Source: Pseudomonadota bacterium (GTDB lineage: Bacteria; Pseudomonadota; Gammaproteobacteria; Burkholderiales; Chitinibacteraceae). From it: a DNA stretch of 64,000 nt. The stretch's first letter is position 1; the number at the start of each line of letters is the position of its first letter. Below are positions 6,526-38,172 of the stretch, in pieces. The notes under the pieces were generated by a model. That model made no database searches. It was not told the DNA's origin and saw only the letters and a program-made list of their open reading frames with translations. Both the position numbers and the translations under genes were made by a program. The stretch lies in contig JAPLQI010000093.1 of NCBI GenBank assembly GCA_026399755.1, positions 1 to 64,000 on the forward strand, given 5' to 3'.

Positions 6526-6557
6526 ATATTTTTATAGCTCAACAGAAGGTCGCCGGA

Positions 6558-7136
6558 TTATAACGCTGGCTTTTGCAAAGTCACTGACTTTTCGGACAAA
6601 ACTTGTGGCAGTGCAACATGGGACCAATCAAAAAAAGGACCGGGGTCGGTTTTGCGCTCGGGGGCAATTTGGCTATGCCCTAGCAAATATTTGATCGGAT
6701 ACCTGCATACTAGATCGTCCAGCAAGCTGTTTAGCACCGTATATTGTATGGCTTCAAACGGCGTAAAATCAGACCCTTCCAGCTCTATGCCAATTGAAAA
6801 ATCATTGCAACGCTCGCGCCCTTGCCAGCTAGAAACCCCTGCATGCCAAGCCCGTTGTGAACAAGGCACAAACTGCAGCAACTCCCCATTGCGGCGAATT
6901 AAAAAATGCGCCGATACGCGCAGTTTAGATAGCTCCATGTATGTGGGATGCTTATTTATATCGAGTGTATTGGTAAATAAGCGTTCAATATCGTCACCAC
7001 CAAAGGGCTCGCCCGGTGGCAAATGAATATTATGAATTACCACCATATCAATCGGCATGCCCGCACTACGTACATCACAATTGGGGCTGGATACACGCCG
7101 CGCCTGATTACACCAGCCTTGCGCATCAAATTGCAT
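6558..7136 (-). CDS. ampD: 1,6-anhydro-N-acetylmuramyl-L-alanine amidase AmpD
   Basis: Cytoplasmic zinc amidase that removes the peptide from 1,6-anhydro-muropeptides in cell-wall recycling, and so sets the inducer level for AmpR-type beta-lactamase control. The 192-aa protein has the Amidase_2 fold. His35 (VVIHNIH) and the LLGHSQIAPERKTDPG block supply the zinc ligands and catalytic Lys/Asp. RVSSPNCDVR near the N-terminus is typical of AmpD. The ATG at 7136 is chosen over 7169 because AAGGAAG lies six bases upstream and the N-terminus then matches AmpD proteins. No ampR or ampC is nearby. Confidence 0.94.
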   Translation of the reverse strand: MQFDAQGWCNQARRVSSPNCDVRSAGMPIDMVVIHNIHLPPGEPFGGDDIERLFTNTLDINKHPTYMELSKLRVSAHFLIRRNGELLQFVPCSQRAWHAGVSSWQGRERCNDFSIGIELEGSDFTPFEAIQYTVLNSLLDDLVCRYPIKYLLGHSQIAPERKTDPGPFFDWSHVALPQVLSEKSVTLQKPAL

Positions 7137-7181
7137 ATTTACTTCCTTATCAGGCTCCAAGTCAGCCAAGCTAGCTATTAA

Positions 7182-8528: not shown

Positions 8529-8621
8529 CTTTATTTCCTAACACATCGATGTAGGGCGGGCGCTCATAGCCACTGAGTAAAGGGGTGGCTAAATCACTTA
8601 TATTTAATAAGGAATAGGTGC

Positions 8622-22252: not shown

Positions 22253-22275
22253 TTGTGCAAGCGGCGCTTGCACAA
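22253..22275. repeat. Palindrome after yhcG-like gene
   Basis: Arms TTGTGCAAGC / GCTTGCACAA with a 3-bp centre, flanked by AAT/ATT. Its overall shape and the AATTG ends resemble the 21449/21488 palindromes. One of its frames reads VQAALAQI, close to the QQAVAQL encoded by those copies. It could be part of a decayed second yhcG copy. Confidence 0.6.
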
Positions 22276-22351
22276 ATTCGGTATGTCAGCGAGAACAAGC
22301 CCGTATGTAGCTTTGATGAATATACTAATGGAACGATGGGAGGACTGGGGT

Positions 22352-22912
22352 ATGAGTTTTAAACCCTCAATTCATCATCGGCGATCAATTCGCCTGCAAG
22401 ACTATGACTACAGCCAAGCGGGAGCCTATTTCATCACCATTTGCACACAAGGCCGTGAATGCAATTTAGGTGTGATTGAAAATGGCGCCATGCTTCTATC
22501 TTTAGTGGGTGAGTGTGTCTGTGCCGCATATCATGATTTACCCAAACGATTCCCGAATATCTCGCTCGACGCTTTCACCATCATGCCCAACCACCTGCAC
22601 GGTATTTTGGTCATTACCCCCGTAGGGGCGCCGATTGCTGCGCCCTTATCCACTATTGCGCCAATCACAAGCAAGGGCGCAGCAAGCAGCGCCCCTACGG
22701 TCGGCGAAATCATGCGCGCATTCAAATCATTGTCGGCTATTGCCGCAAATCGCCTATTGAACCGTGTGGGGCAGCCGTTCTGGCAACGTAATTATTGGGA
22801 GCATGTTATTCGTGATGAACAGGAATGGCAGACCATTCGTGAATATATTCACCACAACCCACAGCAATGGGAGCAAGACAAGTTGTATGTTTCCATGGGA
22901 GCTGGGGTATGA
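22352..22912 (+). CDS. REP-associated tyrosine transposase (RAYT)
   Basis: Single-strand transposase of the IS200/IS605-like Y1 family, thought to mobilise REP palindromes. Starting at ATG 22352 (MSFKPSIHHRRSIRLQDYDY) it is 186 aa, usual for RAYTs. The HUH metal motif is MPNHLHGILV, and YWEHVIRDEQEW contains the candidate catalytic tyrosine and C-terminal helix. The upstream extension to 22253 runs through a palindrome. Residues about 91-116 are encoded by a REP-like inverted pair (22621-22700), in frame between the HUH motif and the next conserved block. A second copy follows the gene. The start overlaps an hsdM-end-like sequence. Confidence 0.9.
   Translation: MSFKPSIHHRRSIRLQDYDYSQAGAYFITICTQGRECNLGVIENGAMLLSLVGECVCAAYHDLPKRFPNISLDAFTIMPNHLHGILVITPVGAPIAAPLSTIAPITSKGAASSAPTVGEIMRAFKSLSAIAANRLLNRVGQPFWQRNYWEHVIRDEQEWQTIREYIHHNPQQWEQDKLYVSMGAGV
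22621..22700. repeat. REP-like doublet inside the RAYT coding region
   Basis: Inverted pair: left arm begins CGTAGGGGCGC, right arm ends GCGCCCCTACG, enclosing a spacer. The right 44 bp are identical to the copy at 22929-23020, while the left arm has diverged. It is translated in frame within the transposase. Confidence 0.85.
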
Positions 22913-23152: not shown

Positions 23153-24620
23153 GCTTCAAACGGATAAGGCACATGTGCCGTATGAATCAGAGCTACGCCG
23201 TAGGTGGTCTCAAGCTGGCGGTAGCATTCCTGACGACTGGAAAATCGTTACCCTAGAAACTTTACTCAAAGACAATAAAAGTATTGCTGTTGGTGTTATG
23301 TATCCGGGGCCGGATACACAGGGTGGTATTAAATTAATAAAAGTTGGTGATATTAAAGGCGGACTTATTCCGCAGAAACCGAATTATTGTATTTCTCCCG
23401 AAACCAACGAAGAGCACAAGCGCACTCAATTAATTGGTGATGAGTTGTTAATTACACTGGTTGGCAATCCCGGCGAATGCGTTGTTGTCACTCCAGCCAT
23501 GGCGGGCTGGAATCCTGCACGAGCCATTGCAGTTATTCGCTTGGCTGAACCTAGCTTGCGTGTATATCTAAAAACCGTTTTGGAAAGTGCTGCAGGTAAG
23601 CATTTAATTGATGCAGTTTTGAATACCACTGTTCAAAAGACACTCAATCTAAAGGATATTCGCCAGCTTCCTGTTCCAATGCCACGAAGCGAAACTATTC
23701 GCGCAATTTCATCATTTTCGGAGGCGCTTAGTGACCGAATTGGCTTGTTGCGCGAGACCAATGCGACGCTGGAGGCGATGGCGCAGGCGTTGTTTAAGTC
23801 GTGGTTTGTCGATTTCGACCCCGTCCATGCTAACGCCGGCACCAAGCAAATGATCAACCCCGCGTCATCCCCGAGTGATTTTGCCGGGGATCCAGCCGCG
23901 CCACTGGATTCCCGCCTGCGCGGGAATGACGATTTACTCCCGCCCGAACTCCAAACCCTCTTCCCCGCCACCTTCACCGCTTCCCCACAAGGCTTGGTGC
24001 CGGAGGGGTGGAAGTGGCTGGAGCTTGATGAAGCTTACGAACTTAACCCAAAGCGCAACTTGAAGAAAGGTACCTTGGCCAAGTATCTCGACATGGCCAG
24101 CGTGGGTACTAGTGGGCATACCGCAGAAAGTGCAATCAATCGGGAGTTTAGCTCGGGTACAAAATTCATCAATGGCGACACGCTCCTTGCGCGCATCACG
24201 CCATGCCTAGAAAACGGTAAGACTGCCTTTGTTGATTTTCTGGAAGAGGATGAAATAGGTTGGGGCTCAACCGAGTTTATCGTTATGCGGCCAAAGGCGC
24301 CGTTGCCCGCCTATCATGCCTATCTGCTGGCACGATTCCCCGTATTCAGAGAGTTTGCAATTCAGAGTATGTCTGGCACAAGTGGACGCCAGCGAGTTCA
24401 AAACGATGTACTTGGGCGTTATATGTTGGCTGTGCCTGATTCTGCGGTGGCAGAGCTGTTTGGTCAGACAGTTGAAGCAATGCAACAGAAAATTGCGGCC
24501 AATCATCAACAAGCCCAAACCCTCGCCACCCTGCGCGACACGCTGCTGCCGCGCCTCATCTCCGGTCAGCTTCGCCTGCCGGATGCCGATGCGATGCAAG
24601 CGGAGGTCTGTGATGTTTGA
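23142..24620 (+). CDS. hsdS: Type I restriction-modification system, specificity subunit HsdS
   Basis: DNA-recognition subunit, 492 aa, with two target-recognition domains (about 20-195 and 280-440). Each is followed by a conserved helical segment: ETNATLEAMAQALFKSWFVD, and AQTLATLRDTLLPRLISGQL at the C-terminus. It should pair with HsdM and HsdR to recognise a bipartite sequence that cannot be predicted here. The ATG overlaps an hsdM-like stop. Between the central helices and TRD2 (about residues 241-263) the reading frame passes through a dRS3-type repeat encoding SRLRGND. Whether this loop is tolerated is unknown, but the frame stays open. The stop overlaps the next gene by 8 bp. Confidence 0.93.
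   Translation: MSSELQTDKAHVPYESELRRRWSQAGGSIPDDWKIVTLETLLKDNKSIAVGVMYPGPDTQGGIKLIKVGDIKGGLIPQKPNYCISPETNEEHKRTQLIGDELLITLVGNPGECVVVTPAMAGWNPARAIAVIRLAEPSLRVYLKTVLESAAGKHLIDAVLNTTVQKTLNLKDIRQLPVPMPRSETIRAISSFSEALSDRIGLLRETNATLEAMAQALFKSWFVDFDPVHANAGTKQMINPASSPSDFAGDPAAPLDSRLRGNDDLLPPELQTLFPATFTASPQGLVPEGWKWLELDEAYELNPKRNLKKGTLAKYLDMASVGTSGHTAESAINREFSSGTKFINGDTLLARITPCLENGKTAFVDFLEEDEIGWGSTEFIVMRPKAPLPAYHAYLLARFPVFREFAIQSMSGTSGRQRVQNDVLGRYMLAVPDSAVAELFGQTVEAMQQKIAANHQQAQTLATLRDTLLPRLISGQLRLPDADAMQAEVCDV
23864..23930. repeat. dRS3-like repeat inserted in hsdS
   Basis: The right part is ATTCCC-8 bp-GGGAAT, exactly the dRS3 pattern known from Neisseria. The outer ends GTCATCCCC and GGGAATGAC are roughly inverted. 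The element is read through in frame and encodes the recognisable peptide DSRLRGND. Confidence 0.8.
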
Positions 24621-26652
24621 TCTACACACGCTAGATGATCTAAGCCTACTGGCTGAATCTTATGAACTGGAATGCAAGCTGGCGCAGGGGCGAGATGGTC
24701 TAGGGGAACTTCCTAAGGACTTCTGGCCGACGTATTCAGCGATGAGCAACGCCTATGGTGGCGTGGTATTGCTGGGAGTACGCGAAAAACAAGGGCAATT
24801 CACTATTGCAGGATTAGATAATCCGGCAAAGGTGCGTGGTGATCTCTTTAATACCTTGAATAACCCAGCCAAAGTCAGCTCAAACCTTTTATCTGACGCT
24901 CATGTGTATGAAGCATGTATTGATAACAAGGTGATCCTAGTCGTGAATATTCCAGCAGCGACCCGAAAGCAGAAACCGGTGTATCTGAACGGGCAACCAC
25001 TGGGCAATACTTACCGGCGTCTGCATGAAGGTGATCGTCATTGTGATGATGAAACCGTCAAGCGCATGTTGGCCGAGCAAATGGAAGACGAGCGTGATGC
25101 GCGCATTTTGCCTGGCTTTAGCATGGCGGATATTGACACTGAGAGCCTGCGCATCTATCGGCAAATGCTGCGCGATGAAAAACCGGCCCATCCTTTTTTG
25201 GAGCAGGATGATTTCAATTTTCTCGTCAGTTTGCGTGGCTGGCGGCGTGATCGACAAACAGGCGAGGAAGGGTTGACCTTGGCCGGACTGCTGATGTTTG
25301 GCAATTGGTTGGCCATCCAAGAAGGCGTACCGAATTATTTCGTAGATTATCAGGAACGACCAGAGGCAAAAGCCGAGCTACGCTGGGTGGATAGGCTTGT
25401 GCCGGATGGTAGCTGGACTGGCAATTTGTTTGAGTTTTATCGGCGGGTGTATCGCAAATTGGTGGCTGATTTGAAAGTACCATTTGCCCTGAAAGATGGC
25501 CAGCGGCAAGACGATACACCTGTACATGTGGCTTTGCGTGAGGCCTTGGTCAATACGCTGGTACATGCCGATTATAGTGGTCGCCTTTCGGTGCTGGTGG
25601 TGAAGCGCCCTGATATGTTTGGGTTCAGAAATCCTGGCGGTTTGCGCCTACCTATTGAGCAGGTGATTCGCGGCGGGGATAGCGATTGCCGGAATCGCAT
25701 TCTGCATCAGATGTTTTTATTGATTGGCCTTGGTGAACGAGGCGGATCAGGCATACCCAAAATTTATAGCGGCTGGCGGAGTTGCGATTGGCGTCCCCCT
25801 TTACTCTTGGAAAAAGACGAGCCAGAGCAAACTCAGCTAGTGCTTCATATGGCTGATTTGCTACCTAGCCATATTGTTGAACAGTTGCGTCAGCGCTTGG
25901 GGGCAAGATTTGATGGACAGGATCAGGCTGGGCGTTTGATATTGGTGACTGCGGCATTAGAGCGGGCAGTGAGCCACAATCGTTTGCTCGAAATTTGCGG
26001 AGCACATGCGCACGACTTGAGTGTATTGCTGGCGACTCTTGTGCGGGATGGACTATTACTTTCAGATGGTAAATCACGCGGTACAGTCTATTTCTTGCCG
26101 GGAGAAACTTTGCCGACACCTGAGCAGGTGTTTGTTGGTCCAAACATATTATCGTCGGTCATTGGCAATATGGGGAGCAGCTCCGAGTATTTAGAAAGCA
26201 GCTCCGAGTATTTGGTGGGCAGCTCCGAGTATTTGCCCGAAAGCTCCAAACATATAACTCCAGAAACCCATCATCAGTTAGAGGCAAAAACAGAAGCCAG
26301 TCGAGATGGATATGGCCGCTTGCTCTCGCCATTGCTCGATGCGCCAATTATTGATGATCTAGAGGTACTTGATGAAGGTTTCCGTCTTATGTTGGAAAAG
26401 CTCGCAGATGAGCCGAGAACTAAGGCTAAATTGGGGCAACAGCAAATGGAACGAGTTTTACTCACTTTATGCCGCGATCAATTTCTCACTTTATCTGCCT
26501 TAGCATCTTTAGTTAACCGCAATGCAGATGGTCTACGTCAGCAATATCTTAGCAAGATGGTTAGAAGTAGAGTTGTCATGCTGGCGTTCCCAACTAAGCC
26601 AACTCATGAAAAGCAAGCTTACCGTGCTGTAGAGGGGGCTGATTCTGAGTAG
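24613..26652 (+). CDS. AlbA_2/Schlafen-like ATP-binding protein with winged-helix tail
   Basis: A 679-aa protein of the group annotated as AlbA_2 DNA-binding/'putative transcriptional regulator' ATPases. The N-terminal AlbA_2 domain runs to about residue 130 (ESYELECKLAQG, SNAYGGVVLLGVRE). A GHKL-type HATPase_c_4 region spans about 290-390 (LREALVNTLVHADY, FRNPGG, GERGGSGIPKI). Winged-helix-like segments lie near 430-490 and at the C-terminus. Between them is a tandem repeat of SSEYL (about residues 517-540). The ATG at 24613 overlaps the hsdS stop (ATGTTTGA), so it is coupled to hsdS. Such genes frequently ride inside type I RM loci; a regulatory or anti-phage role is inferred, not shown. 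Confidence 0.85.
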   Translation: MFDLHTLDDLSLLAESYELECKLAQGRDGLGELPKDFWPTYSAMSNAYGGVVLLGVREKQGQFTIAGLDNPAKVRGDLFNTLNNPAKVSSNLLSDAHVYEACIDNKVILVVNIPAATRKQKPVYLNGQPLGNTYRRLHEGDRHCDDETVKRMLAEQMEDERDARILPGFSMADIDTESLRIYRQMLRDEKPAHPFLEQDDFNFLVSLRGWRRDRQTGEEGLTLAGLLMFGNWLAIQEGVPNYFVDYQERPEAKAELRWVDRLVPDGSWTGNLFEFYRRVYRKLVADLKVPFALKDGQRQDDTPVHVALREALVNTLVHADYSGRLSVLVVKRPDMFGFRNPGGLRLPIEQVIRGGDSDCRNRILHQMFLLIGLGERGGSGIPKIYSGWRSCDWRPPLLLEKDEPEQTQLVLHMADLLPSHIVEQLRQRLGARFDGQDQAGRLILVTAALERAVSHNRLLEICGAHAHDLSVLLATLVRDGLLLSDGKSRGTVYFLPGETLPTPEQVFVGPNILSSVIGNMGSSSEYLESSSEYLVGSSEYLPESSKHITPETHHQLEAKTEASRDGYGRLLSPLLDAPIIDDLEVLDEGFRLMLEKLADEPRTKAKLGQQQMERVLLTLCRDQFLTLSALASLVNRNADGLRQQYLSKMVRSRVVMLAFPTKPTHEKQAYRAVEGADSE

Positions 26653-26948
26653 ATATCTTTAGATACAAGCGCTTTTGTGAATTTAATGAGTGATTTAATA
26701 CAAATCGCTCACACGGGGAATATTTATCACAAGTCTTTGTTTCTGTTTGAGTAAAGTGCTTTAACGCAAACGGCTGCGCTGGTATCTAGGTGAAGAGTTA
26801 ATGCTGAGAATGTCGATTCAGTCGACATGTACGAGGTTGGGGCGACCAATTGGTCAGCAGCTTGCTGACCAATTGTCATGATCTGTCGATGATTGACGAC
26901 TAGGGAATGAGTACACACAGGCATGTGCTCATTTGAATAGGATATGTA
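26653..26948. other. Intergenic region with palindromes upstream of the DUF6933 gene
   Basis: Contains a 29-bp palindrome at 26847-26875 (arms CAATTGGTCAGCA) and a 19-bp inverted repeat ATGTCGA-5 bp-TCGACAT near 26812-26830. TGTCGAT recurs at about 26885 and again at about 27647 and 27687, flanking the DUF6933 gene. These could be operators or hairpins; no promoter was assigned with confidence. Confidence 0.5.
26847..26875. repeat. 29-bp palindrome of the island family
   Basis: Arms CAATTGGTCAGCA / TGCTGACCAATTG around a 3-bp centre. It shares the AATTG ends and CAG/CTG centre with the copies in the yhcG-like gene. Confidence 0.8.
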
Positions 26949-27635
26949 ATGCAGTTTTATTGCTCAAAAGCCGCCGCTGAGGCGCTGGAAACCACCCACA
27001 AGGGTAAGGTTAAATCGTGGTTAGAGGCTGCTCCCGCTTCCAAGGCAGCTGGGCCGTGGGTGTGGCAGGTGCATGCGATTAAGCTGGCACGGCAGAATGT
27101 GTTTATCGTGATGGAACGCGAAACGCGTTTTTCTATGGTGTTTTGGGGCATCAAGAAAGGCGATGGCGAAACGCTGCTGAAACAGTTTTACGCGCGGCTG
27201 GTGAATTTGCTGCTGTGGATTAACCAAGATGTAAATTACTTATCCGAAGTGGATGCCGTCGCGGCGATTGAACGGATATTGGAACGTGTCCAGCGATACT
27301 GTTTCGTTGCTGGCGTAGACCGCAGCGCGCAAACGCATATCAATGAAGTGGCGCGTGAATGTGACTATGCCTTTCATATGAATGGTTGCCTGCCTAATCC
27401 AGAGGGTGAGGCAGCTGCCTTTGATATGAAGATCAATGACACGCTGCGTAGTGTGCGTGGCGGTGATTATTTTTGGCCATTTGAAGCGTTTTTTTGCTCA
27501 TGGGCGCGTGAATATGCGGGTGCAACTCCAGCGCAATGCGAGGAGTTGATGCAGCGCTTTTTGCAACTGCATCGTGCAAAATCGGCTATTTATGGGGATA
27601 ACTTCATCGCGGATGAGGGCTGGTTGCCTAAGTAA
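26949..27635 (+). CDS. DUF6933-like hypothetical protein
   Basis: A 228-aa protein of unknown function. The N-terminal part (MQFYCSKAAAEALETTHKGK, then VWQVHAIKLARQNVFIVMERETRFS) resembles the DUF6933 family, which has a small domain with a conserved Trp/His and an 'xNRKxxVLVN'-like strand. The middle is helical (LLKQFYARLVNLLLWINQ). An AGGAT ribosome site precedes the ATG. It lies between the AlbA_2 ATPase and hsdR in the same direction, so it is probably an accessory passenger of the RM locus. The family match is from memory of its pattern and moderately sure. Confidence 0.65.
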   Translation: MQFYCSKAAAEALETTHKGKVKSWLEAAPASKAAGPWVWQVHAIKLARQNVFIVMERETRFSMVFWGIKKGDGETLLKQFYARLVNLLLWINQDVNYLSEVDAVAAIERILERVQRYCFVAGVDRSAQTHINEVARECDYAFHMNGCLPNPEGEAAAFDMKINDTLRSVRGGDYFWPFEAFFCSWAREYAGATPAQCEELMQRFLQLHRAKSAIYGDNFIADEGWLPK

Positions 27636-27727
27636 TCAGGCAAACGTGTCGATTTATTGATGTTTTTTAAACATGTTTTGTGAATGTGTCGATTGCATCA
27701 ATATATTTCGACATGATGCATTGCTTA

Positions 27728-27750
27728 TTGGGCAGCAGGCTGCTGCCCAA
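27728..27750. repeat. 23-bp palindrome just upstream of hsdR
   Basis: Perfect arms TTGGGCAGCAG / CTGCTGCCCAA with one central base, 25 bp before the hsdR start. It matches the family at 21449 with C-to-G exchanges kept symmetrical on both arms, which argues that the hairpin shape is conserved. Confidence 0.8.
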
Positions 27751-27774
27751 ATCGGGAAACGCTGGGAGGCGTGA

Positions 27775-30700
27775 ATGACCGAAGACCAATTAGAACAAGA
27801 AGCCCTGAGCTGGCTGGTTGAAACAGGTTATCGCCATCTCTGCGGCTATGATATTGCGCCCGATGGTAAAGACGCTGAGCGTGGCGATTATATGCAGCCG
27901 GTTTTAATTGAACGTCTGCGGTCTGCTATTGCACGATTAAATCCTTTGATTCCCTTGGTGGCGCGTGAAGATGCTATTAAACAGGTGCTGGATTTAGGAA
28001 CACCTGCTTTATTGGCGGCGAATCGGCATTTTCATGGCCTGCTGGTGAATGGCGTGCCGGTTCAATACCAGAAAGATGGCGAAACGCGCGGGGATTTTGT
28101 GCGGCTGATTGATTTTGCAGAAGCCAGCAAAAATGAATTCCTGGCGATTAATCAGTACACGCTAAAAGGCGCAAAACATACCCGCAGGCCGGATATTATT
28201 TTATTTGTAAATGGCTTGCCGCTGGTATTGCTGGAGCTTAAAAACCCTGCCGATGAAAATGCGGATATTTATAAAGCATTTGAGCAGATTCAAACTTATA
28301 AAGCGCAAATTCCTGATGTGTTTCAGTACAACGAAATTCTGGTGATTTCGGATGGGTCTGAGGCGCGGATGGGATCTTTATCAGCTAATGCCGAGCGCTA
28401 TATGCAATGGCGCACGATTGATGGCATTAGCCTTGATCCATTAGGGCAATTTAATGAATTAGAAACGTTGATTCGCGGCATTCTTGCGCCGGAATATCTG
28501 CTGGATTATTTGCGCTTTTTTGTGCTGTTTGAAGACGACGGCACGCTGCTCAAAAAGATTGCTGGCTATCACCAGTTTCACGCTGTCCGTGCGGCGATTG
28601 AGCGGGTAGTCACAGCATCCCGCCCCAATGTGACCGGCAGCAAAAAAGGTAAAGGCGGCGTGGTCTGGCATACGCAGGGGTCGGGCAAGAGCATCACCAT
28701 GACTTGCTTTGCCGCACGCGTGATGCGGGAAGCTGCGATGGAAAACCCGACCATTGTGGTGATTACCGACCGTAATGATCTGGATGGCCAGCTGTTCGGT
28801 GTGTTTTCTTTGGCTCAGGATTTGCTTCGTGAGCAGCCGGTGCAAGTAAGTACTCGGCAAGATTTGCGCGCCAAATTGAGTAACCGCCCCTCTGGCGGGA
28901 TTGTGTTTGCCACTATCCAAAAGTTTGCGCCGGGCGAGGACGAAGATGTATTCCCCCTGTTATCAGACCGGCACAATATTGTGGTGATTGCCGATGAGGC
29001 ACACCGCACGCAGTATGGTTTTGAAGCAAAACTCAAACAACGCCTGCCAAAGCCTATCCAAGCCCCCAATCTGGCTGGCGTCGCTCAAGAAGCAAGCCCT
29101 CCGTATTTAACAAGCAGCTATCAAGTCGGTTACGCCCAACATCTGCGTGATGCACTGCCCAATGCCACTTTTGTGGCGTTCACCGGCACGCCGGTATCTT
29201 CTGAGGATAGAGATACGCGCTCGGTATTTGGTGAATACATCCATATCTACGATATGCAGCAGGCCAAAGAAGATGGCGCAACGGTGGCGATTTATTATGA
29301 ATCGCGGCTGGCAAAATTAAGCCTTAAAGTCGATGAAATGGCCCAGATTGACGATGACGTCGATGAGCTGGCCGAGGATGAAGAAGAAAGCGAGCAAGGC
29401 AAGCTTAAATCTAAATGGGCGGCACTGGAGCGGATTGTGGGTGCTGAGCCACGTATTGCCAGTGTGGCGGCTGATTTAGTGAATCACTTTGAAACACGCC
29501 AACAAAGCCAGTCGGGTAAGGCGATGGTTGTAGCGATGAGCCGCGAGATTTGCGTGCATTTATATAACGAGCTAATCAAGCTGCGCCCGGATTGGCATAA
29601 CGATGACCCAGAGCTGGGCGCGATCAAAATTGTGATGACCGGCTCGGCCAGTGACAAGGCTTTGCTCCGGCCTCACATCTACCCTAAGCAAGTCAAAAAG
29701 CGGCTGGAAAAACGCTTTAAAGATCCAAATGATCCTTTGCAATTAGTGATTGTGCGCGATATGTGGCTCACCGGCTTTGATGCGCCTTGCGTGCATACGC
29801 TGTATATCGATAAGCCCATGAAGGGGCACAATCTGATGCAAGCCATTGCGCGGGTGAATCGGGTATTTCACGATAAGCAAGGCGGCTTGGTCGTTGATTA
29901 CATCGGCATCGCCAACGAGCTGAAAGCGGCACTCAAGGAATACACCGCCAGCAATGGGCGCGGTAAACCGACGGTGGATACGGCGGAAGCGTGGGCGGTA
30001 CTCGAAGAGAAAATCGATATCTTGCAAGGCATGTTGCATGGCTTTGATTACAGCGAATTTATCACTGGCGGCCATCGCCTATTGGCAGGCGCAGCTAATC
30101 ATGTGCTGGGATTAGCAGACGGTAAAAAGCGCTTTGCAGATAACGCGCTGGCGATGAGTAAAGCATTTAGCCTGTGCGGCACCATGGATGAAGCCAAAGC
30201 CGTGCGTGAAGAAGTCGCCTTTTTGCAAGCGGTGAAAGTGCTGCTGATTAAGCGGGATCTGAGCGCAAAAAAACTCAGCAATGAGGATAGGGAACTGGCC
30301 ATTCGCCAGATTATCGGGCAGGCGGTTGCCTCGGATGAGGTGGTCGATATTTTTGATGCGGTGGGTTTGGAAAAGCCCAATATTGGTTTGCTGGATGATG
30401 ATTTCTTGGCTGAAGTGCGTAATCTGCCTGAGAGAAATCTGGCCGTAGAATTGCTGGAGCGCTTGCTGGAAGGGGAAATCAAATCCAAGTTTGCCAGCAA
30501 TGTGGTGCAGCAGAAGAAGTTTTCTGAGCTACTGACTGATGTGGTTAAACGTTATCAAAACCGTAGCATCGAAACCGCACAAGTGATGGAAGAGCTGGTC
30601 GCCATGGCCAAGAAATTTCGTGAGGCGGCTTTGCGTGGCGAAGCCTTGGGATTATCAGAAGACGAAGTGAAGTTTTATGATGCTCTGGCTAATAATGAAT

Positions 30701-30933
30701 CGGCAGTGCGTGAGCTGCCGGACGAAACCCTTAAACGCATTGCCCATGAGCTTACGACCAATTTGCGAAAAAATATCAGCGTGGATTGGTCGCAACGGGA
30801 AAGTGTTCGTGCCAAATTGCGGATTATGGTGAAGCGCATCCTGCGTAAATACGGCTATCCGCCTGATTTTCAGGAAGATGCGATTCAAACTGTGTTGCAA
30901 CAGGCTGAGGCATTGAGTGCAGAGTGGGTTTAA
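27775..30933 (+). CDS. hsdR: Type I restriction endonuclease subunit HsdR
   Basis: ATP-dependent translocase-nuclease of 1052 aa. The N-terminal PD-(D/E)XK nuclease is seen at [20 protein letters not shown] (about residues 141-160). SF2 helicase motifs follow: Walker A TQGSGKS (about 300), DEAHR (about 406), FTGTPV, and later [13 protein letters not shown] and [10 protein letters not shown]. The helical C-terminal domain binds HsdM. The ribosome site GGGAGG precedes the ATG. The last 77 codons are duplicated at 34283-34516. Confidence 0.96.
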
Positions 30934-31209
30934 TAGATGTGTGGGCTTGCGAGTGGTTCATGCCCTGTGTTTGGACAAGATGCGCACTACTGTAGAGGGG
31001 TGTACTTGAAATAGCCGTGCGGCATCGGCGCTAATCTTCGTGCCTGATGTCAGCTGACACAGCACGGGTCGAACTCACTGTCGTTTGCAGAGCAGTTTTA
31101 CGCGTTAGCAGTAAAGGTGCGCCCAATTTAAAAAGGGCAAGGGGTCGATTCAGGCAAGCTCGGCCTCTCAAAGCTAATGCGACAGATACAGAATTAGGGT
31201 GGAGGGCGT
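30934..31209. other. Intergenic region between hsdR and the nuclease-transposase fusion
   Basis: No gene. It holds an inverted repeat around TGTCAGCTGACA (about 31057-31068) within a larger CGTGC...GCACG hairpin. From 31111 it contains the left terminal repeat of the putative IS66-like element. No clear promoter for the fusion gene was identified. Confidence 0.5.
31111..31165 (+). repeat. Candidate left terminal inverted repeat
   Basis: Begins GTAA and includes CCCAATTTAAAAAGGGCAA and GGGGTCGATTCAGGCAAGC. It pairs imperfectly with the complement of 34018-34072. About two thirds of positions match over the outer 31 bp. Confidence 0.45.
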
Positions 31210-33978
31210 ATGAATGCGAAAAATCAAGAAATACGTATTTCAGAAGTTGTTGTTCGGGCTCATCTCGACTGTGCGCGGAAAAGCTTCTTGCTCATGTTTC
31301 ATCGTGATCAAAGAAAACCCACCGAATATGGGGTGATGATAGGCGAGCGAAAAAGCCGTGATGTTACAAATTATCTCAGCAAACATGAGATTAGAGGGGC
31401 TTTGAGCCTGGACGTTATAAGTGGAGAGCATCATTGGGCCGCAGGCGACATTTCTATCAATCAAATCATTTCTAAGCGACTTGAAACTGAAAACGTATTT
31501 TTCGAGATAGTCAATAACAAATCCAGAATAGAAAAACTTTCTATTTCCCCTGTTATTTTTTCGGCATCACACACTCTCCGCCAAGAAGAACGGATTGAGC
31601 TTGCGTTTGCTGCCCATGTTTTGGACCAAATTCACAAAACTCAGACACTTTCAGGAAAAATTGTACTGCTCGGCGGCGAGGAAAAATCGGTTCGGCTTAC
31701 GGATTTCGCCCAAAAATTTCATCCAGCAATAGCTCTGCTCAATGGCTGGCTGGCTTCGAGTCAAGATCCGCCTCTGGTGGTGCTGAATAAACATTGCGCC
31801 GAATGCGAGTTTCAGCATTTATGCCGACCTATAGCCGAGAGCGAAGACAGTATCAGTCTCTTGGCTAGAATCGGGCCAGCAGAACTCGCCCGCTATACAA
31901 GGAAAGGCATTTTTACTATCAAGCAACTGTCATTTCTTTATCGGGCCAGAAAGCGTAATCGACGTGGTAAGACGCCTCCGGTTAAGCACCTTTATGAGTT
32001 ACAGGCATTGGCTCTGCGTACTGGAAATGTCTATCTCCACGGGGACGCAACACTAATTCCCAGCGCCTCGGTGGAAATCTTTCTTGATATAGAAGTACTT
32101 CCAGAAACTGAGTTCCACTACTTGATCGGTATTGTGGTCGCAAATCAAGACAGCTTGGAGCGCCACCAATATTGGGCGGACTCGAAGGCTGATGAAGCCG
32201 CCATCTTTGCTAAGATGATCATTCTTTTAAATTGTCACCCAACAAGTCCGATTTTTCATTATGGTAACTTCGAACGTGTAGTCATCACCAAACTTGGAAA
32301 AACGTACGATACGCCAATTGATACTATTCTTACACGTTTGTTCAACGTCAACACCTGCATATTTGGGAAAATTTATTTCCCTGTTAGATCAAACGGCCTA
32401 AAAGAAATATGCAATTTTATTGGATTACCCTGGAGTTCCCCAGGCGCATCAGGACTGCAAAGCATTGTTTGGCGATATAGGTATGACGAAACACAAGATG
32501 AAAAATTTTGCAATTTGCTGTTGGCGTATAATTACGAAGACTGTGAAAATCTTCGGTTACTTGTGGTGCGATTACGTGAAATAGCGACAAATGGGAAACA
32601 CTCTGTCGATATTCGATTTGCTGAAATTGAAGGTGGGTCATTATCTGAGCAAGCTTCTACCATCGTATTTCAATTTAAAAAATTATTGGTTTCTGCTCAT
32701 GGAAAATATGAGCAGTCAAAAATTATTCTGAAAAAGGTGTCTAAAGCTAATTCTTCATCCGTTTTGGCTGGCAAACAGGCAGGAGTACTGGCACGGGAAA
32801 ATGCACGCAACAAACACAATACTAGAAAAGTGGACAAAACAATAAAAGTCCGACGTGGAAGAACATGCCCGAAACATCCAGGAAGATTACTGAAGCCAAC
32901 TGAAATTGAATCGACAAGAACAATTATCGATCTTATATTTACGCCTAGGGGCGTAAAGAAGGTGGTAACTCGGTATATTGGAAAACAAGGATATTGTTCA
33001 GCCTGCCATAGTCAATACAGTCCACCTGCAATTCGGCGGCTTGGCTCGGTGCAAAATTATGGACATGGTTTTCAAGCATGGGTAGCTTATCATCGCATGG
33101 CATTACGCCTACCGATTGATAAGATTACACAACTTATTGAGGATGTTTTTTTTGAAAAAATATCTTCAAGTCAGGTATATGCTTTATTCGAGCAACTAAG
33201 CCGATATTATGTTTTTTCAGAGAATTTGTTGTTAAAAAAAATACTAAGCAGTGCGATTATCCACGCAGATGAAACAACAGTAAATATCTTAGGTTCATCG
33301 CAATATATATGGGTAATCACTGACGGTACGCACGTAGTTTTTAGACACACTGAAGGCAGGGACGCAACTGTAATTCATAAATTACTGGATGGATATAAGG
33401 GCGTTTTATGTTCTGACTTTTATTCAGGATACGATTCAGTTGAATGTGCACAACAAAAATGTTGGGCTCATCTGATTAGAGACTTAAATGATGATCTACG
33501 AAAATCACCATTTGACATTGAATTAGAAACTTTTGTTTCAGCTGTGCGAGACCTAATTGTCCCAATATTTGAAGCGACTGAGAAATACGGATTGAAAGTT
33601 AGAAATTTAGCGAAATTCCACAAGAGCGTTGATCATTTCTATGATCACCAAATCATTGGGAAAACTTATCGATCAGACTTGATGATTACTTACCAAAAAC
33701 GCTTCTTGAAATATAGAGACAAATTATTTGTTTTCCTTGATAGAGATGGAGTTCCGTGGAACAACAACATGGCCGAAAGGGCTTTGAGGCATATAGCGGT
33801 TCAGAGAAAAATATCAGGTTCATTTGGGAAGGGGGGTACATTGCGTTATCTCATCTTTCTTGGCATCACTCAGTCATGTCGATTTCAGGAGAAGTCGTTA
33901 CTACAATTCCTACTTTCTGGAGAAAAAGATATTGATGAATTCAAGGGAAAAGGTGAGTTTGTTGGCTGGCGGATGTAG
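31210..33978 (+). CDS. Fusion of Cas4/RecB-like nuclease, DEDD RNase-H-fold nuclease and IS66-type transposase
   Basis: A single 922-aa frame with a strong ribosome site (GGAGGG). Residues 1-250 resemble the TM0106-type RecB/Cas4 nuclease: Cys21 plus Cys196-x2-Cys199-x5-Cys205 reproduce the four-cysteine Fe-S pattern of Cas4. Residues ~285-465 resemble the YprB-type RNase H fold, with Asp293-x-Glu295 (FLDIEVL) and Asp444 (YNYEDCENL). A basic linker (~500-560) leads to a zinc-ribbon-like CPKHPG...CSACHS. An IS66 DDE domain follows: Asp687 (HADETT), Asp736 (CSDFYSGYD) and Glu856 (NNNMAERALR). All catalytic residues are present. TM0106 proteins normally carry a helicase in place of the transposase. 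The gene is more AT-rich than its neighbours, a sign of transfer. Confidence 0.85.
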   Translation: MNAKNQEIRISEVVVRAHLDCARKSFLLMFHRDQRKPTEYGVMIGERKSRDVTNYLSKHEIRGALSLDVISGEHHWAAGDISINQIISKRLETENVFFEIVNNKSRIEKLSISPVIFSASHTLRQEERIELAFAAHVLDQIHKTQTLSGKIVLLGGEEKSVRLTDFAQKFHPAIALLNGWLASSQDPPLVVLNKHCAECEFQHLCRPIAESEDSISLLARIGPAELARYTRKGIFTIKQLSFLYRARKRNRRGKTPPVKHLYELQALALRTGNVYLHGDATLIPSASVEIFLDIEVLPETEFHYLIGIVVANQDSLERHQYWADSKADEAAIFAKMIILLNCHPTSPIFHYGNFERVVITKLGKTYDTPIDTILTRLFNVNTCIFGKIYFPVRSNGLKEICNFIGLPWSSPGASGLQSIVWRYRYDETQDEKFCNLLLAYNYEDCENLRLLVVRLREIATNGKHSVDIRFAEIEGGSLSEQASTIVFQFKKLLVSAHGKYEQSKIILKKVSKANSSSVLAGKQAGVLARENARNKHNTRKVDKTIKVRRGRTCPKHPGRLLKPTEIESTRTIIDLIFTPRGVKKVVTRYIGKQGYCSACHSQYSPPAIRRLGSVQNYGHGFQAWVAYHRMALRLPIDKITQLIEDVFFEKISSSQVYALFEQLSRYYVFSENLLLKKILSSAIIHADETTVNILGSSQYIWVITDGTHVVFRHTEGRDATVIHKLLDGYKGVLCSDFYSGYDSVECAQQKCWAHLIRDLNDDLRKSPFDIELETFVSAVRDLIVPIFEATEKYGLKVRNLAKFHKSVDHFYDHQIIGKTYRSDLMITYQKRFLKYRDKLFVFLDRDGVPWNNNMAERALRHIAVQRKISGSFGKGGTLRYLIFLGITQSCRFQEKSLLQFLLSGEKDIDEFKGKGEFVGWRM

Positions 33979-34017
33979 TGAGTTGTGTTTCGAACCAATC
34001 TGCCGTCCCGGCATGTT

Positions 34018-34072
34018 CGCGCTTACGTAATCTTGACCCCGTTGCCGAGATTTGATTGGCCCACGCTATTAC
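34018..34072 (-). repeat. Candidate right terminal inverted repeat
   Basis: Read on the minus strand from 34072 it begins GTAATAGCGTGGGCCAATC and includes GGCAACGGGGTC, GATTACG and AAGCGCG. These match the left end with small gaps. Confidence 0.45.
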
Positions 34073-34169
34073 GTTGAAAGCCATTGAAGCTTATTGGAAG
34101 ATACGATCTTTGGGTGGGTCGAGCCAAATATCGGCATCCCCGAGGGTCAAATTTCAATCGGCGTGAATA

Positions 34170-34282
34170 CTCAAGCCCAAACCCTCGCCATTCTGTGCGA
34201 CATGTTGCTGCCGCGCCTTATCTCCAGCCAGCTGTGCCTGCCCGATGTCGATGCGATGCAAGCGGAGGTCTGTGATGTTTGA
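34170..34282 (+). pseudogene. hsdS: hsdS 3'-end remnant
   Basis: Encodes AQTLAILCDMLLPRLISSQL and then DAMQAEVCDV, closely matching the last ~37 codons of the intact HsdS (24510-24620). Everything upstream of this block is missing. The C-terminal sequence, including the GATGTTTGA overlap, is retained up to about 34281. Confidence 0.85.
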
Positions 34283-34516
34283 TCGGCGGTGCGTGAGCTG
34301 CCGGACGAAACCCTTAAACGCATTGCCCATGAGCTTACGACCAATTTGCGAAAAAATATCAGCGTGGATTGGTCGCAACGGGAAAGTGTTCGTGCCAAAT
34401 TGCGGATTATGGTGAAGCGTATCCTGCGTAAATATGGCTATCCGCCTGATTTTCAGGAAGATGCCATTCAAATGGTGCTGCAACAGGCTGAGGCACTGGG
34501 TGCGGAGTGGGTGTAA
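34283..34516 (+). pseudogene. hsdR: hsdR 3'-end remnant
   Basis: Encodes the last ~77 residues of HsdR ([20 protein letters not shown] ...) with only a few changes from the copy at 30703-30933, mostly synonymous. It is joined directly to the hsdS remnant, so hsdS-hsdR intervening DNA has been deleted in this copy. Confidence 0.88.
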
Positions 34517-34600
34517 TGTCATTACCCATTAAAATGCTCGGCAGCGCTTAGGTCAAAACTTAGGGATGCAATTCATTATTTAAAAAATATATCTAGCAAA

Positions 34601-34679
34601 ATAGCCACTAGATACTTCTCTGCTTAGTGCCAGAGAGAAAAGCCCCGTAAATCTAACGATTGCGGGGCTTTTTCTTGCC
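34601..34679 (+). repeat. Right direct repeat of island (attR-like)
   Basis: Diverged copy of 19254-19332 that starts with the last eight tRNA bases (ATAGCCAC) and includes the full terminator. No tRNA body precedes it. Confidence 0.8.
34640..34674 (+). terminator. Terminator copy at right island end
   Basis: Hairpin arms AGCCCCGTAA / TTGCGGGGCT with one G-T wobble in the stem, followed by TTTTTC. It is a copy of the tRNA-Met terminator and could end transcription from the island. Confidence 0.8.
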
Positions 34680-35022
34680 AGAAGTAACTGCCACATCGTT
34701 AGGCCGCAGTTGTCGCCCATCCCCTTTTTAGCCTTACCCATCTTGCGGTTTTTTTTGCCGTTATCACCTCTGTTGCTCGCAAAAAACAATGCGCTTAAGT
34801 CCTCTACATTTCATCCGATATAGCGTATGACGATGGCTTTAATTTCGTCTTTTAAATGGCACACTTAGTTTTTTTAGTCCGGCTTTTTAATGAAGAAAAA
34901 CGAAAACGATTTAATTTGAAGCCTGCTTATTTAGGCTTCAAAACAGCGATTAAATGGCCCTGCTCGGTTCAGTGTTTGCTTGGTTTTATGCGGCGTAACA
35001 CCGAGAACATCAGGATAGGAAA

Positions 35023-36924
35023 ATGGCGATAAGCCTTAATACCAATCTTACGGCGATCAGTACTCAGCGCAGTTTGAGTACGTCGCAAAGTGCTTTGGCT
35101 ATTTCCTTAAATCGCCTTTCATCCGGCCTGCGTATCAATCGTGCACAGGATGATGCAGCTGGGCTGGCGATTAGCAGCCGTATGACGTCGCAAATCAAAG
35201 GTACGAGCCAAGCAGTTCGTAATGCTAATGACGGTATTTCCTTGCTGCAAACCGCCGAAGGGGCAATGAGCGGTATCAGCGACAATCTGCAGCGCATGCG
35301 CGAGCTAGCCGTTCAGGCGGCCAACGCGCCGGTTTCTAGCTCAGATCGCAAACTCATTAATGCCGAGGTGCAGCAGCTCAGCGCAGAAATCCAGCGTATT
35401 GCCAGCTCGGCCCATTTCAATGGAATCAAGCTGCTGGATGGGAGCTTTAATTCGCACGCCTTTTATGTTGGCGCAAACTCAGGCGATGCAATTAGCATCA
35501 GCACGATTAGCAATATGCAAACCACGCATTTGGGCAGCACCGGCTCTTCCTTTGAGGCAACACTTAAAAGCGAGTCGGTCGCGTCCTCGCTCAGTGCTGG
35601 AGATTTGCTGCTGAATAATATCTCGGTCAACGCTTCAACACTGGGCGCAGCGGCTGGGCAAACGGCTGATAGTGCTTTTGCGATTGCGGCGGCCATTAAT
35701 GCCAGCACCGCAACGTCAGGTGCTAGTGCCAGCACCGCAACGTCAGGTGCTAGTGCCAGCGCCAACACAAAATTAATCAGCGCGGCGCCTAGCTCATTCA
35801 GCAATATTGCAGCATTTAGCATCAATGGCGTGGATATCGGCTCGGTCAGCGCGGGCACGGATGCCAGCAGCCAAAGCACTAACCTTGCCAATGCGATTGC
35901 GGGGTTTGCAGCGCAAACGGGTGTAACAGCCAGCGCCAGCGCAGGAATCGTGACGATGAGCGCGGCAGATGGGCGCAATATTAATATCGGCTTAAACGGT
36001 ACGGTGGCTAATGCTGCAGCCGCAGCAGCAAATAAAGCGGCGTTTCTGAGCCAAACAGGCTTGGCAGCTGGGGCGGTAGGCTCGCAGGGAACTGCGGCGG
36101 TGGCGGCTCAAAACACCTTTAATATTGCGGCTAATGTGGGAGCGGGGGCGCAGTTTGTCGTGAATGGGATTAGCTTTACTGTGCGTAATTCGGCACTGGC
36201 ATCGGCGGTGGTGGATGCCAGCCATGTAGATTTGAATATTTCTGGCGCGAGCAATAATGCGGCAACGGTTTCATCGGCGCTCAGTAGTGCGATCTCTTTG
36301 GCGCAAGGCAATGGGCTCACCTCAGCCGCTCTCAGTGCTTTTAGTGTTGCAGATGGCGGTGGCACGGTGGTGCTTAATGACAATACGCCCGGCGCTTCAA
36401 GTACCAGTATTTCCAGTAGCGCAGGATCTGTCACGCGTAATATCACGGGGGCCGCTACCAGCAGCGGCAGTGCGGCCAGCAGTCGTGGCACGGTTACGCT
36501 TTCATGCTCTTCACAAGACGGCCTTAGCGTTGCAGGGGCCGCCCCCGAAAACGCAGGATTGAAAGCAGGCATCACCGCGGCCACAGCCATTGCCAGCATC
36601 AGCGGCATTACTTCACTCAATACTTTAACGGCGTCGAATGCGCAAAATGCCATTTCCTCACTTGATAGCGCGCTAGATATTGTAAATGCTGCCCGTGGCT
36701 CGCTGGGCGCTTACCAAAATCGTTTTATTTGGGCGGTCGCTAATATGCAAACCAGCTTAGAAAGCCTAACAGCATCGCGCAGCCGTATTCAAGATGCCGA
36801 TTTTGCCGCTGAAACGGGCAGCATCACCCGCGCTCATATCTTGCAAAAAGCAGGCACGGCGATGCTTGCCCAAGCCAACACCACGCCTTATATGGTGATG
36901 GCCCTACTCAAAGGCGCGCTTTAA
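35023..36924 (+). CDS. fliC: Flagellin
   Basis: Structural subunit of the flagellar filament, 633 aa. The conserved N-terminal D0/D1 helices (residues 1-140, including LNRLSSGLRINRAQDDAAGL and FNGIKLLDG) are intact. So is the C-terminal D1/D0 (about 545-633, including SRIQDADFAAET and LQKAGTAMLAQAN). The central 400 residues are very rich in Ala, Ser, Thr and Gly and lack aromatic residues, as in surface-exposed variable domains. A 27-bp tandem duplication lies at about residues 228-246. No other flagellar gene is adjacent, so it is an isolated, possibly extra, flagellin. It begins about 340 bp after the island's right end. Confidence 0.93.
   Translation: MAISLNTNLTAISTQRSLSTSQSALAISLNRLSSGLRINRAQDDAAGLAISSRMTSQIKGTSQAVRNANDGISLLQTAEGAMSGISDNLQRMRELAVQAANAPVSSSDRKLINAEVQQLSAEIQRIASSAHFNGIKLLDGSFNSHAFYVGANSGDAISISTISNMQTTHLGSTGSSFEATLKSESVASSLSAGDLLLNNISVNASTLGAAAGQTADSAFAIAAAINASTATSGASASTATSGASASANTKLISAAPSSFSNIAAFSINGVDIGSVSAGTDASSQSTNLANAIAGFAAQTGVTASASAGIVTMSAADGRNINIGLNGTVANAAAAAANKAAFLSQTGLAAGAVGSQGTAAVAAQNTFNIAANVGAGAQFVVNGISFTVRNSALASAVVDASHVDLNISGASNNAATVSSALSSAISLAQGNGLTSAALSAFSVADGGGTVVLNDNTPGASSTSISSSAGSVTRNITGAATSSGSAASSRGTVTLSCSSQDGLSVAGAAPENAGLKAGITAATAIASISGITSLNTLTASNAQNAISSLDSALDIVNAARGSLGAYQNRFIWAVANMQTSLESLTASRSRIQDADFAAETGSITRAHILQKAGTAMLAQANTTPYMVMALLKGAL
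35702..35758 (+). repeat. 27-bp tandem duplication in flagellin
   Basis: Two consecutive identical copies of a 27-bp unit encode the peptide ASTATSGAS twice, with a partial third start (GCCAGCGCC). It is in frame and lies in the variable domain. Confidence 0.85.
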
Positions 36925-36939
36925 CACGCCGCTCCGCGC

Positions 36940-37845
36940 TTATTTACCCACCCCAATCATGGCCGTGGTATTGGCTCCTAGGCTGGTGGTAGGCAGTTGC
37001 CCATCCCACTTCTCAATCCAAAGCGTTTGATTTTTAATTTGTGCCGCTTCTACGCCAAATTTCTTGATTGCCTCCCCCACTACTTCCAAAGCACGCGCAT
37101 CGCCTTGAGCGACCGCTATTTTTGCATCTGCCTGCCCTTTAGCAACGGCCACCGCATTGGCAGCATCGGCAAGATTCTTGCGCAACATGGCTTCAGATCT
37201 TAATGCCTCTTGCGTCGCTTGCAGCTTGGCATTGATGGCCGATTGAATATTGGATGGCAGACGCAGCTCGTTCACAAAGCCAAATTGCTCGACCATGATG
37301 CCGTAGTGATTCATTTCATGATTAATCTTGGCGCGAACTTCTTCGGCCAATTTAATTTTCCCCCCTGCCAGCAAGCCTTCAGCATCGTATTTGCTGCCGT
37401 AATTATTCAGCGCATTGCGAATGCTGTTGCGGATAATCTGACTGGTGATTTCTTCATAACCACGCTTGTATTTCTGATACAGAACCGGTGCTTTGCCCGA
37501 ATCGATACTGTATGAAATGCTGATATCCGCGTTAATCACGATGCCGGACGCTACTTGGAAATTCATCGACTCATCGGTAGGCGAGCCTTCAGTGGCCGAT
37601 TTTGTCCATGTATAGGTCTGAGTAAACGTCGGAAACTCAACCACACTCGTGCCAATCCCAATCAAATGCCAACCGCTAGAAAGCGGCACAGGCTCGACCT
37701 TGCCATCAATCCGATTGAACTCCACCCCCACATGATTAGCCGACACCGAAGCCACAAAAATATGCAGCGTAATATACAAAGCCAGCGCCACAGCAAGCCC
37801 AATCACAATACGGATATGCTGAAAAACACCCATGAAATTCATCAT
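36940..37845 (-). CDS. SPFH/Band 7 (prohibitin-like) membrane protein
   Basis: A 301-aa protein with one N-terminal transmembrane helix (IRIVIGLAVALALYITLHIF), then an SPFH domain (about 40-220). An Ala/Lys-rich coiled coil follows (ATQEALRSEAMLRKNLADAA ...). Such proteins form oligomeric membrane scaffolds that control proteases or membrane domains. The start could be any of three nearby Met codons (MMNFMG). It converges on the flagellin gene, with only 15 bp between the stops. No protease partner is adjacent. Confidence 0.85.
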   Translation of the reverse strand: MMNFMGVFQHIRIVIGLAVALALYITLHIFVASVSANHVGVEFNRIDGKVEPVPLSSGWHLIGIGTSVVEFPTFTQTYTWTKSATEGSPTDESMNFQVASGIVINADISISYSIDSGKAPVLYQKYKRGYEEITSQIIRNSIRNALNNYGSKYDAEGLLAGGKIKLAEEVRAKINHEMNHYGIMVEQFGFVNELRLPSNIQSAINAKLQATQEALRSEAMLRKNLADAANAVAVAKGQADAKIAVAQGDARALEVVGEAIKKFGVEAAQIKNQTLWIEKWDGQLPTTSLGANTTAMIGVGK

Positions 37846-38172
37846 TTGCTCTTTTAAAGGAGTGATCTAGCGAGAAAAAGCTTAAACCCACATCCGTGCA
37901 TTTATGAACACGGCATGCTTGTCGCCTTTATACGCTTACAGATTCTTACTCACAACAAACAGAATAAAAATACAACACTCTGAAAAATGCCCCACAGAGA
38001 ATGCCCATTTATGCCGACCATATAAGGCGCGCTAATCTGCTAAAATGCAGCGCATTCATGCTATGCAATTGATAGCCGCAGCCGCTTTTACACATGCTGT
38101 ATCGTCCCTCATATAGTCCGCTCTACCCGCCCAAAATCAGCAGATTTCGGCGCTTTTACCGTAAGGCTCGTC
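37846..38172. other. Intergenic region between divergent SPFH and flavoprotein genes
   Basis: About 327 bp that must contain promoters for both divergent genes. No repeat, RNA or small ORF was recognised, and no promoter could be assigned with confidence. Confidence 0.4.

Follow-up and report, generated by a model that had tools for sequence, protein, structure and literature searches.

The gene described here, referred to as the fusion gene, lies on the forward strand of a 64,000-nucleotide stretch of contig JAPLQI010000093.1 (assembly GCA_026399755.1), which derives from a Pseudomonadota bacterium of the Chitinibacteraceae. The whole stretch is termed the window. Residue numbers are those of the 922-residue protein that the gene encodes (the window protein), and loci and genomes used for comparison are designated by L or G followed by three digits. 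An initial annotation, made from the DNA letters, had claimed one uninterrupted frame with a good ribosome-binding site. Indeed, the open reading frame (ORF) at 31210-33978 begins with ATG and extends over 922 codons with no internal stops, and GGTGGAGGG is located immediately 5' of the ATG. The frame represents one real protein in which a TM0106/COG2251-type module is joined to an IS66 transposase. The gene and its modules are as follows.

31210..33978, + strand: fusion gene, 922 residues, single copy (one match) in its own genome assembly
31222..31845, + strand: Cas4-like PD-(D/E)XK fold, residues 5-212 (fold match, cysteine and motif tables, Cas4 profiles)
32068..32592, + strand: DEDD-type 3'-5' exonuclease fold, residues 287-461 (RNase_H_2, fold match, conserved residues)
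32707..32820, + strand: disordered linker, residues ~500-537 (predicted local distance difference test score, pLDDT, <50 at 499-537)
32827..33924, + strand: IS66-type transposase module, residues ~540-905 (NF033517, Foldseek, DDE triad)

Searches with hidden Markov models identified the TM0106-type nuclease, the RNase_H_2 domain, and the IS66 transposase domain in the window protein. The NCBIfam profile TIGR03491 (TM0106 RecB-like nuclease) matched residues 16-445 with an E-value of 1.3e-56 and 192.5 bits (curated cut-off 97.45), which places a nuclease profile within residues 1-470. The profile transpos_IS66 (NF033517) of the same collection matched residues 536-901 (E 6.2e-57, 193.4 bits, cut-off 180). 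From Pfam, RNase_H_2 was matched at 290-455 (2.1e-21) and DDE_Tnp_IS66 at 617-874 (130.6 bits, cut-off 23.1). Cas4 profiles matched the N-terminal part at 6.4e-4 in the window protein and, at best, 6.1e-7 in the fusion of locus L003. Matches to Bud32 and DDE_Tnp_IS240 scored below their cut-offs and were discarded.

A model of the protein was built by AlphaFold2 with 57 family sequences, and it supports the three folds that had been proposed. The mean pLDDT is 86.3 and the predicted template modeling score is 0.56, and thus the domains are confident and their mutual arrangement is not. Residues 5-212 of the model superimpose onto the Cas4/1 fusion 7mi5 with a VIA-align Z-score of 17.2 (187 residues, root-mean-square deviation 3.1 Å) and onto Cas4 8d3l with a Z-score of 16.0 (deviation 4.2). 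Residues 287-461 resemble the exonuclease region of the family B DNA polymerases, with Z-scores of ~15-16. The VIA-align list consists mostly of rows for the exonuclease domain, and the fold match of the transposase comes solely from Foldseek. There, the whole model matches best to the ISCth4 transposase (6xgx, E 4.8e-8), with Cas4 chains next; the identity in the ISCth4 alignment is 11%. ISCth4 belongs to the IS256 family, an insertion sequence (IS) family other than IS66. Since a sequence search of the PDB with a four-row profile gave no match, these statements on folds rest on the predicted model.

Active-site residues, kept and lost

The residue counts refer to 61 fusion rows, one gene being counted twice (L049 = L123). 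Cys 21, Cys 196, Cys 199, and Cys 205, the acidic residues Asp 293, Glu 295, and Asp 444, and the triad Asp 687, Asp 736, and Glu 856 all sit at the positions named in the initial annotation. The Fe-S cysteine set of the Cas4-like module is kept in the alignment, with Cys 21 in 60 of the 61 rows and the other three in all of them; binding of the cluster itself is predicted. Likewise invariant are Asp 293, Glu 295, and Asp 444 of the exonuclease, and position 355, Glu in the window protein, is Glu in 56 rows and Asp in five. Tyr 440, four residues before Asp 444, is present in all 61 rows, which is the DEDDy pattern. The residue pattern of a DEDD 3'-5' exonuclease is complete, and the corresponding activity is predicted. 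MrfB/YprB also has a DEDD exonuclease, but MrfB is described as carrying a His before the last Asp, the DEDDh pattern (PMC11194089), where the fusions have Tyr 440. The transposase triad is intact, as claimed, with Asp 687, Asp 736, and Glu 856 in 61 of 61 rows, and so are Cys 553, Cys 596, and Cys 599 of its zinc-finger-like region.

Contrary to what the initial annotation claimed, not every catalytic residue is kept: no row retains the (D/E)xK motif of the Cas4-like module. Position 116 is Asp, Glu, or Asn in none of the 61 and position 118 is Lys in none; the upstream Asp of PD-(D/E)XK, at position 96, is Asp in 38 rows and Val in the window protein. The alignment thus indicates that the module has lost its cutting motif. 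Of the plural "nucleases" previously ascribed to the protein, the only one still plausible next to the DDE domain is the DEDD exonuclease.

The fusions share both N-terminal modules (residues 16-445) with the TM0106/COG2251 proteins of TIGR03491, and the cysteines and DEDD residues are common to the fusions and nearly all of 13 stand-alone TM0106 relatives. Four of these 13 keep (D/E)xK, in contrast to 0 of 61 fusions, and two more have N-x-K. Because many stand-alone relatives are degenerate too, decay of the Cas4-like active site may be older than the fusion. In the stand-alone proteins of cyanobacterial genomes (L124-L133), the motif is mostly altered, for example to S-x-E or N-x-K. An inactivated Cas4-like nuclease has been mentioned for the archaeal virus TTV1 (PMC5704561).

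Occurrence, origin, and selection

A scan of GTDB genomes returned 321 stretches with relatives, a figure that is not a count of fusions, and the best 80 of the 321 were examined. An unbroken fusion frame was defined as one of at least 850 residues reaching window residue 880. The same architecture is carried unbroken by 54 of these best 80 loci. The remaining 26 are cut by contig ends, are shortened, contain stops or frameshifts, fall below the cut-offs (L076), or are duplicates (L075, identical to L077). The broken copies of the gene that occur among these loci are what is expected of a mobile gene. Two interrupted copies lie in tandem on one contig (L061:559-3318 and 5977-8746).

When plasmids were searched by tblastn, the match spanned at least 80% of the protein in two records, both of them complete plasmids. 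The Calothrix fusion is 43% identical over 98% of the protein and is annotated as "transposase IS66, putative", and that of Acaryochloris, 33% identical over 88%, as "TM0106 family RecB-like putative nuclease". Given these two different names, one for a transposase and one for a nuclease, the family is easily overlooked. The initial annotation had named, as a possible flaw, that a sequencing or assembly error might have joined two genes. The same one-frame fusion recurs in many assemblies, in 54 of the best 80 loci and in both complete plasmids, which refutes such an error; its probability is virtually nil. The fusion is real and is widespread in bacteria and archaea.

Closer to the window, the nuclease half was used to search 274 genomes from its class, of which 10 matched. 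The fusion was demonstrated in two of them, namely the window's own genome and G068, and the other eight were matched by the nuclease half only. The eight other genomes of its genus gave no DNA match to the fusion gene among the matches listed. One scan of viral contigs found no relatives of the fusion, and tblastn against 50,697 phage records gave a single match, to the transposase part only; a phage origin was rejected on these grounds.

Two trees were calculated, one of the transposase half with 58 fusions and eight plain IS66 transposases from a few genomes, and one of the nuclease half with 58 fusions and 13 stand-alone TM0106 proteins. The fusions form one clade in each (support 0.95 and 0.84, respectively). 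Patristic distances of the two halves correlate with a Mantel r of 0.85, which 0 of 500 permutations reached. Since each half forms one clade and the two trees agree, the sequences point to one old fusion event and hence a single origin. In a tree of 59 rows, 52 of which have a phylum label (12 phyla, archaeal ones included), the labels change 20 times; the minimum is 11 and the mean after shuffling is 32. The phyla are therefore clustered on the tree yet with many crossings, in keeping with horizontal spread; misbinned contigs may add false crossings. The nearest relatives of the window protein are from two betaproteobacterial bins, Nitrosomonas, and an alphaproteobacterial bin.

In nine close pairs, the ratio of nonsynonymous to synonymous substitution rates (dN/dS) is below 1 in every module: 0.09-0.23 for the DDE domain, 0.09-0.29 for the DEDD domain, and 0.18-0.60 for the Cas4-like domain. 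By this measure the Cas4-like domain is under purifying selection, weaker than that on the other two. For L026 and L029, the exonuclease domain has a synonymous divergence of 0.82 and the other modules one of 0.06-0.16, which suggests a swap of the exonuclease domain by recombination.

Possible mobility of the fusion gene

The reading that we favor, with confidence slightly short of even, is that of an old, horizontally spreading family derived from IS66, in which a degenerate Cas4-like fold, a DEDDy exonuclease, and a transposase would bind, trim, and cut and join DNA. The Cas4-like fold would bind a DNA end or a junction and hold it in place but leave it uncut, trimming of the 3' strand would fall to the DEDDy domain, and the DDE domain would cut and join the strands, all within the same polypeptide. 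Whether the fusion still moves its own gene is nearly a toss-up that leans toward yes. The "self-contained transposase" proposed at the outset fits in its lack of TnpA/TnpB-like neighbors, in the short common flanks of many close pairs, and in the cross-phylum spread; it does not fit in that no family-wide terminal repeat or target duplication was found and no close copies were seen within genomes.

In 10 of 12 close pairs, the homologous DNA ends no more than 60 bp from the ATG and no more than ~105 bp from the last conserved codon; a group of four related loci accounts for five of the 12 pairs, and in L078/L087, one of the 10, a contig end is near. A mobile unit hardly bigger than the ORF would fit many of these close pairs. 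Among 1,650 frames neighboring the fusions there were no matches to TnpA or TnpB. The probes were taken from three classical IS66 operons of one genome, and they find each other. Some IS66-like elements lack these helpers.

Several observations weigh against mobility of this kind. Longer common flanks are found in L012/L080 (~580 bp left), L039/L051 (~735 bp left), and L017/L018/L073 (~600 bp right), L026 and L029 share 248 bp to the right, and the DNA shared by L016 and L024 continues through a PIN-toxin/antitoxin pair. The short common flanks of the other pairs could also result from fast turnover of island DNA. Neither a target duplication, which for IS66 is ~8 bp, nor a clean empty site was found at L027/L056, among the relatives of L135, or in G310; the comparisons for L093 and L023 were based on match tables only. 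No family-wide terminal inverted repeat was found around the homologues: with 1500 bp of flank searched, two of 40 loci scored more than 3 above shuffles, and their repeats are unrelated. Own ends, compared with foreign ends at 55 loci, match each other from left to right no better than composition explains. No constraint on synonymous codons, as would mark an element end inside the coding sequence, was seen at the gene ends, the identity being 0.495 at the 5' end, 0.591 at the 3' end, and 0.528 in the middle (0.46-0.62 in 30-codon bins). Finally, with frame length and the extent of the match as criteria, a single fusion-like match is present in 31 of 35 genomes. One genome with a single fusion holds sets of four, three, and two identically scoring plain IS66 copies. 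Draft assemblies may hide recent copies or collapse identical ones. Two or three fusion-like matches are present in G283, G289, G290, and G301, and the pairs compared, which leave out the second copy of G290, are 34-54% identical. The fusion differs in its behavior from an IS66 element that multiplies.

The missing terminal repeat is only suggestive, because few plain IS66 controls score by the same margin. In a search of 700 bp per side at 50 loci, L014 and L066 scored far above shuffles and L012, L024, L062, and L083 barely so. Of the 12 plain IS66 controls, which belong to the 1500-bp search, at most four exceeded the margin, and for one of these the repeat probably lies in coding sequence. 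The own-versus-foreign comparison gave a small excess of inverted repeats (p 0.01-0.06). Direct repeats show the same (p 0.02-0.07), and the excess is thus probably due to composition. At L014, an inverted repeat of 111 bp, 97% identical (5618-5728 and 9167-9277), surrounds the fusion gene and a small helix-turn-helix-like gene; among four genomes searched it occurs solely at that locus.

The insensitivity of the repeat search leaves room for an ordinary IS66 element that carries the fused nuclease as a passenger and whose short or degenerate terminal repeats were missed, an explanation that we consider distinctly improbable. The profile comparison bears on it in part. In the window protein and three other fusions, only the DDE and RNase_H_2 profiles were matched, with a faint Cas4 match in one; PF13007 (leucine zipper) and PF13817 (C-terminal) gave none. 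All four IS66 profiles, the zipper, zinc finger, DDE, and C-terminal ones, were matched in the plain IS66 proteins L171 and L193, but the zipper and C-terminal profiles were not matched in L174, L175, and L194, which retain the zinc finger and DDE matches. The absence of those two profiles therefore does not set the fusions apart, as three of the five plain proteins scanned lack them too. The zf-IS66 profile was matched in none of the four fusions versus five of the five plain proteins. A passenger is also at odds with the lack of TnpA/TnpB-like neighbors and of near-identical copies seen within genomes. Moreover, both halves have long evolved together and the exonuclease is strongly constrained, so the nuclease does not look like a passenger.

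The unit common to L016 (1226-5067) and L024 (5842-9692) would agree with a passenger in having imperfect inverted repeats at both ends; 8 of 1000 shuffles equaled them for L024, and 64 of 1000 did so for L016. This 3.85-kb segment, 85% identical between an alphaproteobacterial bin and Nitrosomonas, holds the fusion gene, the PIN toxin, and the antitoxin. An integron-type site was considered there and rejected, as by eye no consistent core site was seen on the right. In Nostoc flagelliforme (L135:7582-7692), the end of the fusion gene abuts ~30 codons followed by a tyrosine-recombinase-like frame. These codons are the C-terminal end of a frame that extends upstream in three other genomes, and ARAGORN does not call the segment to the right a tRNA, an idea that was dropped.

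Genomic setting and known systems

Within the window the fusion gene immediately follows a type I restriction locus (hsdM, hsdS, hsdR) with the candidate defense genes PDC-S02 and PDC-S63, in keeping with the restriction island of the initial annotation. The features around it are as follows.

30699..30934, + strand: hsdR 3' end, first copy of a 236-bp direct repeat
30968..31047, no strand assigned: left-flank segment, 72.5% identical to a stretch of one same-family genome (G342), perhaps debris of another mobile gene
34011..34163, + strand: repeat-like segment starting 33 bp past the stop codon, 68-75% identical in three same-family genomes, probably an insertion-sequence end
34172..34281, + strand: hsdS 3'-end remnant, resembling window 24510-24622 and the hsdS ends of congeners
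34282..34517, + strand: hsdR 3' end, second copy, 95% identical, right of the fusion gene

The congener G310 is without the insertion, and only ~180 bp separate its hsdR end from the downstream flank. It does not define the element, because the insert in the window also holds the hsdS and hsdR remnants and the IS-like end. By eye, a gene resembling a REP-associated tyrosine transposase lies between hsdM and hsdS (22253-22912, no PADLOC match), and adjoining the island is a 633-residue flagellin-like gene (35023-36924) with a long Ala/Ser-rich insert and, at 35697-35750, a 27-bp tandem repeat.

Such a setting raises the possibility, which we regard as doubtful, that the fusion is domesticated: an immobile protein serving the island, most likely in defense, with the DDE domain as an endonuclease whose product the DEDD domain would degrade. 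Low copy number, the lack of common terminal repeats, and the conserved active sites agree with this, as does the position of the window copy. Pfam and PADLOC scans of the neighbors covered 149 of 220 ORFs, mostly the longest. Among the Pfam matches listed, six of the 149 are integrases, five HigB-like Gp49, and four helix-turn-helix proteins, with PIN and PemK present as well, and PADLOC gave scattered methyltransferase and HEC matches. A UvrD-Cas4-like fusion protein is described as often lying beside restriction genes (PMC5704561). In opposition to domestication, no conserved partner gene was found within 2.2 kb of the fusions, and the common DNA often stops near the ORF. The PADLOC matches number no more than two per model among the 149 neighbors (in the best 25 of 141 families, and without a control set). 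PADLOC 2.0.0, run on three fusions, gave no match beyond Cas4 profiles over the N-terminal part.

No CRISPR repeat array was found within 4 kb of 58 fusion genes; cas1 and cas2 were not searched for directly. Three of the 58 flanks have 14-mers in three to four copies, none of them array-like. No Rfam family reached its gathering score in window 26000-38000, and on these two counts a guide RNA or array was rejected.

With the IS66 family the fusion shares the DDE domain, the triad, and the cysteines of the zinc-finger-like region. It differs in the Cas4-exonuclease module in front, in the missing zf-IS66 match (four fusions), in having no TnpA/TnpB-like neighbors, and in being mostly single copy per genome. 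A survey of COG2251 lists DUF83 and AAA domains as partners (PMC3985635). One of Cas4-like domains lists helicases and Cas1, and the word "transposase" is absent from its main text (PMC5704561). No published description of the fusion was found in the open-license literature, a search that did not extend to ISfinder. The member sequences are already known, as the individual proteins sit in databases.

The closest working analogs, by hypothesis and without implying membership, would be the CRISPR trimmer-integrases (Cas1-Cas2/DEDDh) and the Cas4/1 fusions, for which capture, trimming, and integration of DNA have been described (PMC10284694, PMC10504553). These likewise combine an integrase with a DEDD exonuclease or a fused Cas4, and no fold matches residues 5-212 better than the Cas4 part of 7mi5. 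Their integrase is Cas1, whereas the fusion has a DDE transposase, a degenerate Cas4 fold, and no array nearby. Casposons are described as mobile and integrase-bearing, some with Cas4 homologs or a Cas4-helicase fusion (PMC6563490, PMC4046053). They have a Cas1 integrase, terminal inverted repeats, and a DNA polymerase gene, in contrast to the single gene with a DDE domain here. It is conceivable, though unlikely, that the family represents a non-CRISPR "trimmer-integrase", that is, a transposase lineage that independently combined in a single chain the set used by CRISPR adaptation, an integrase, a Cas4 fold (here as DNA-end reader), and a DEDD exonuclease, and that mobilizes or captures DNA without classical terminal repeats.

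If the favored reading of a mobile, IS66-derived family is true, a DDE transposase would come with an end-trimming enzyme as part of the same polypeptide, and this in bacteria as well as archaea. It would provide a natural parallel to the preparation of DNA before integration in CRISPR adaptation. Here selection maintains a Cas4 fold that has lost its cutting motif, and whether Cas4 folds have a non-catalytic role thereby becomes directly testable.

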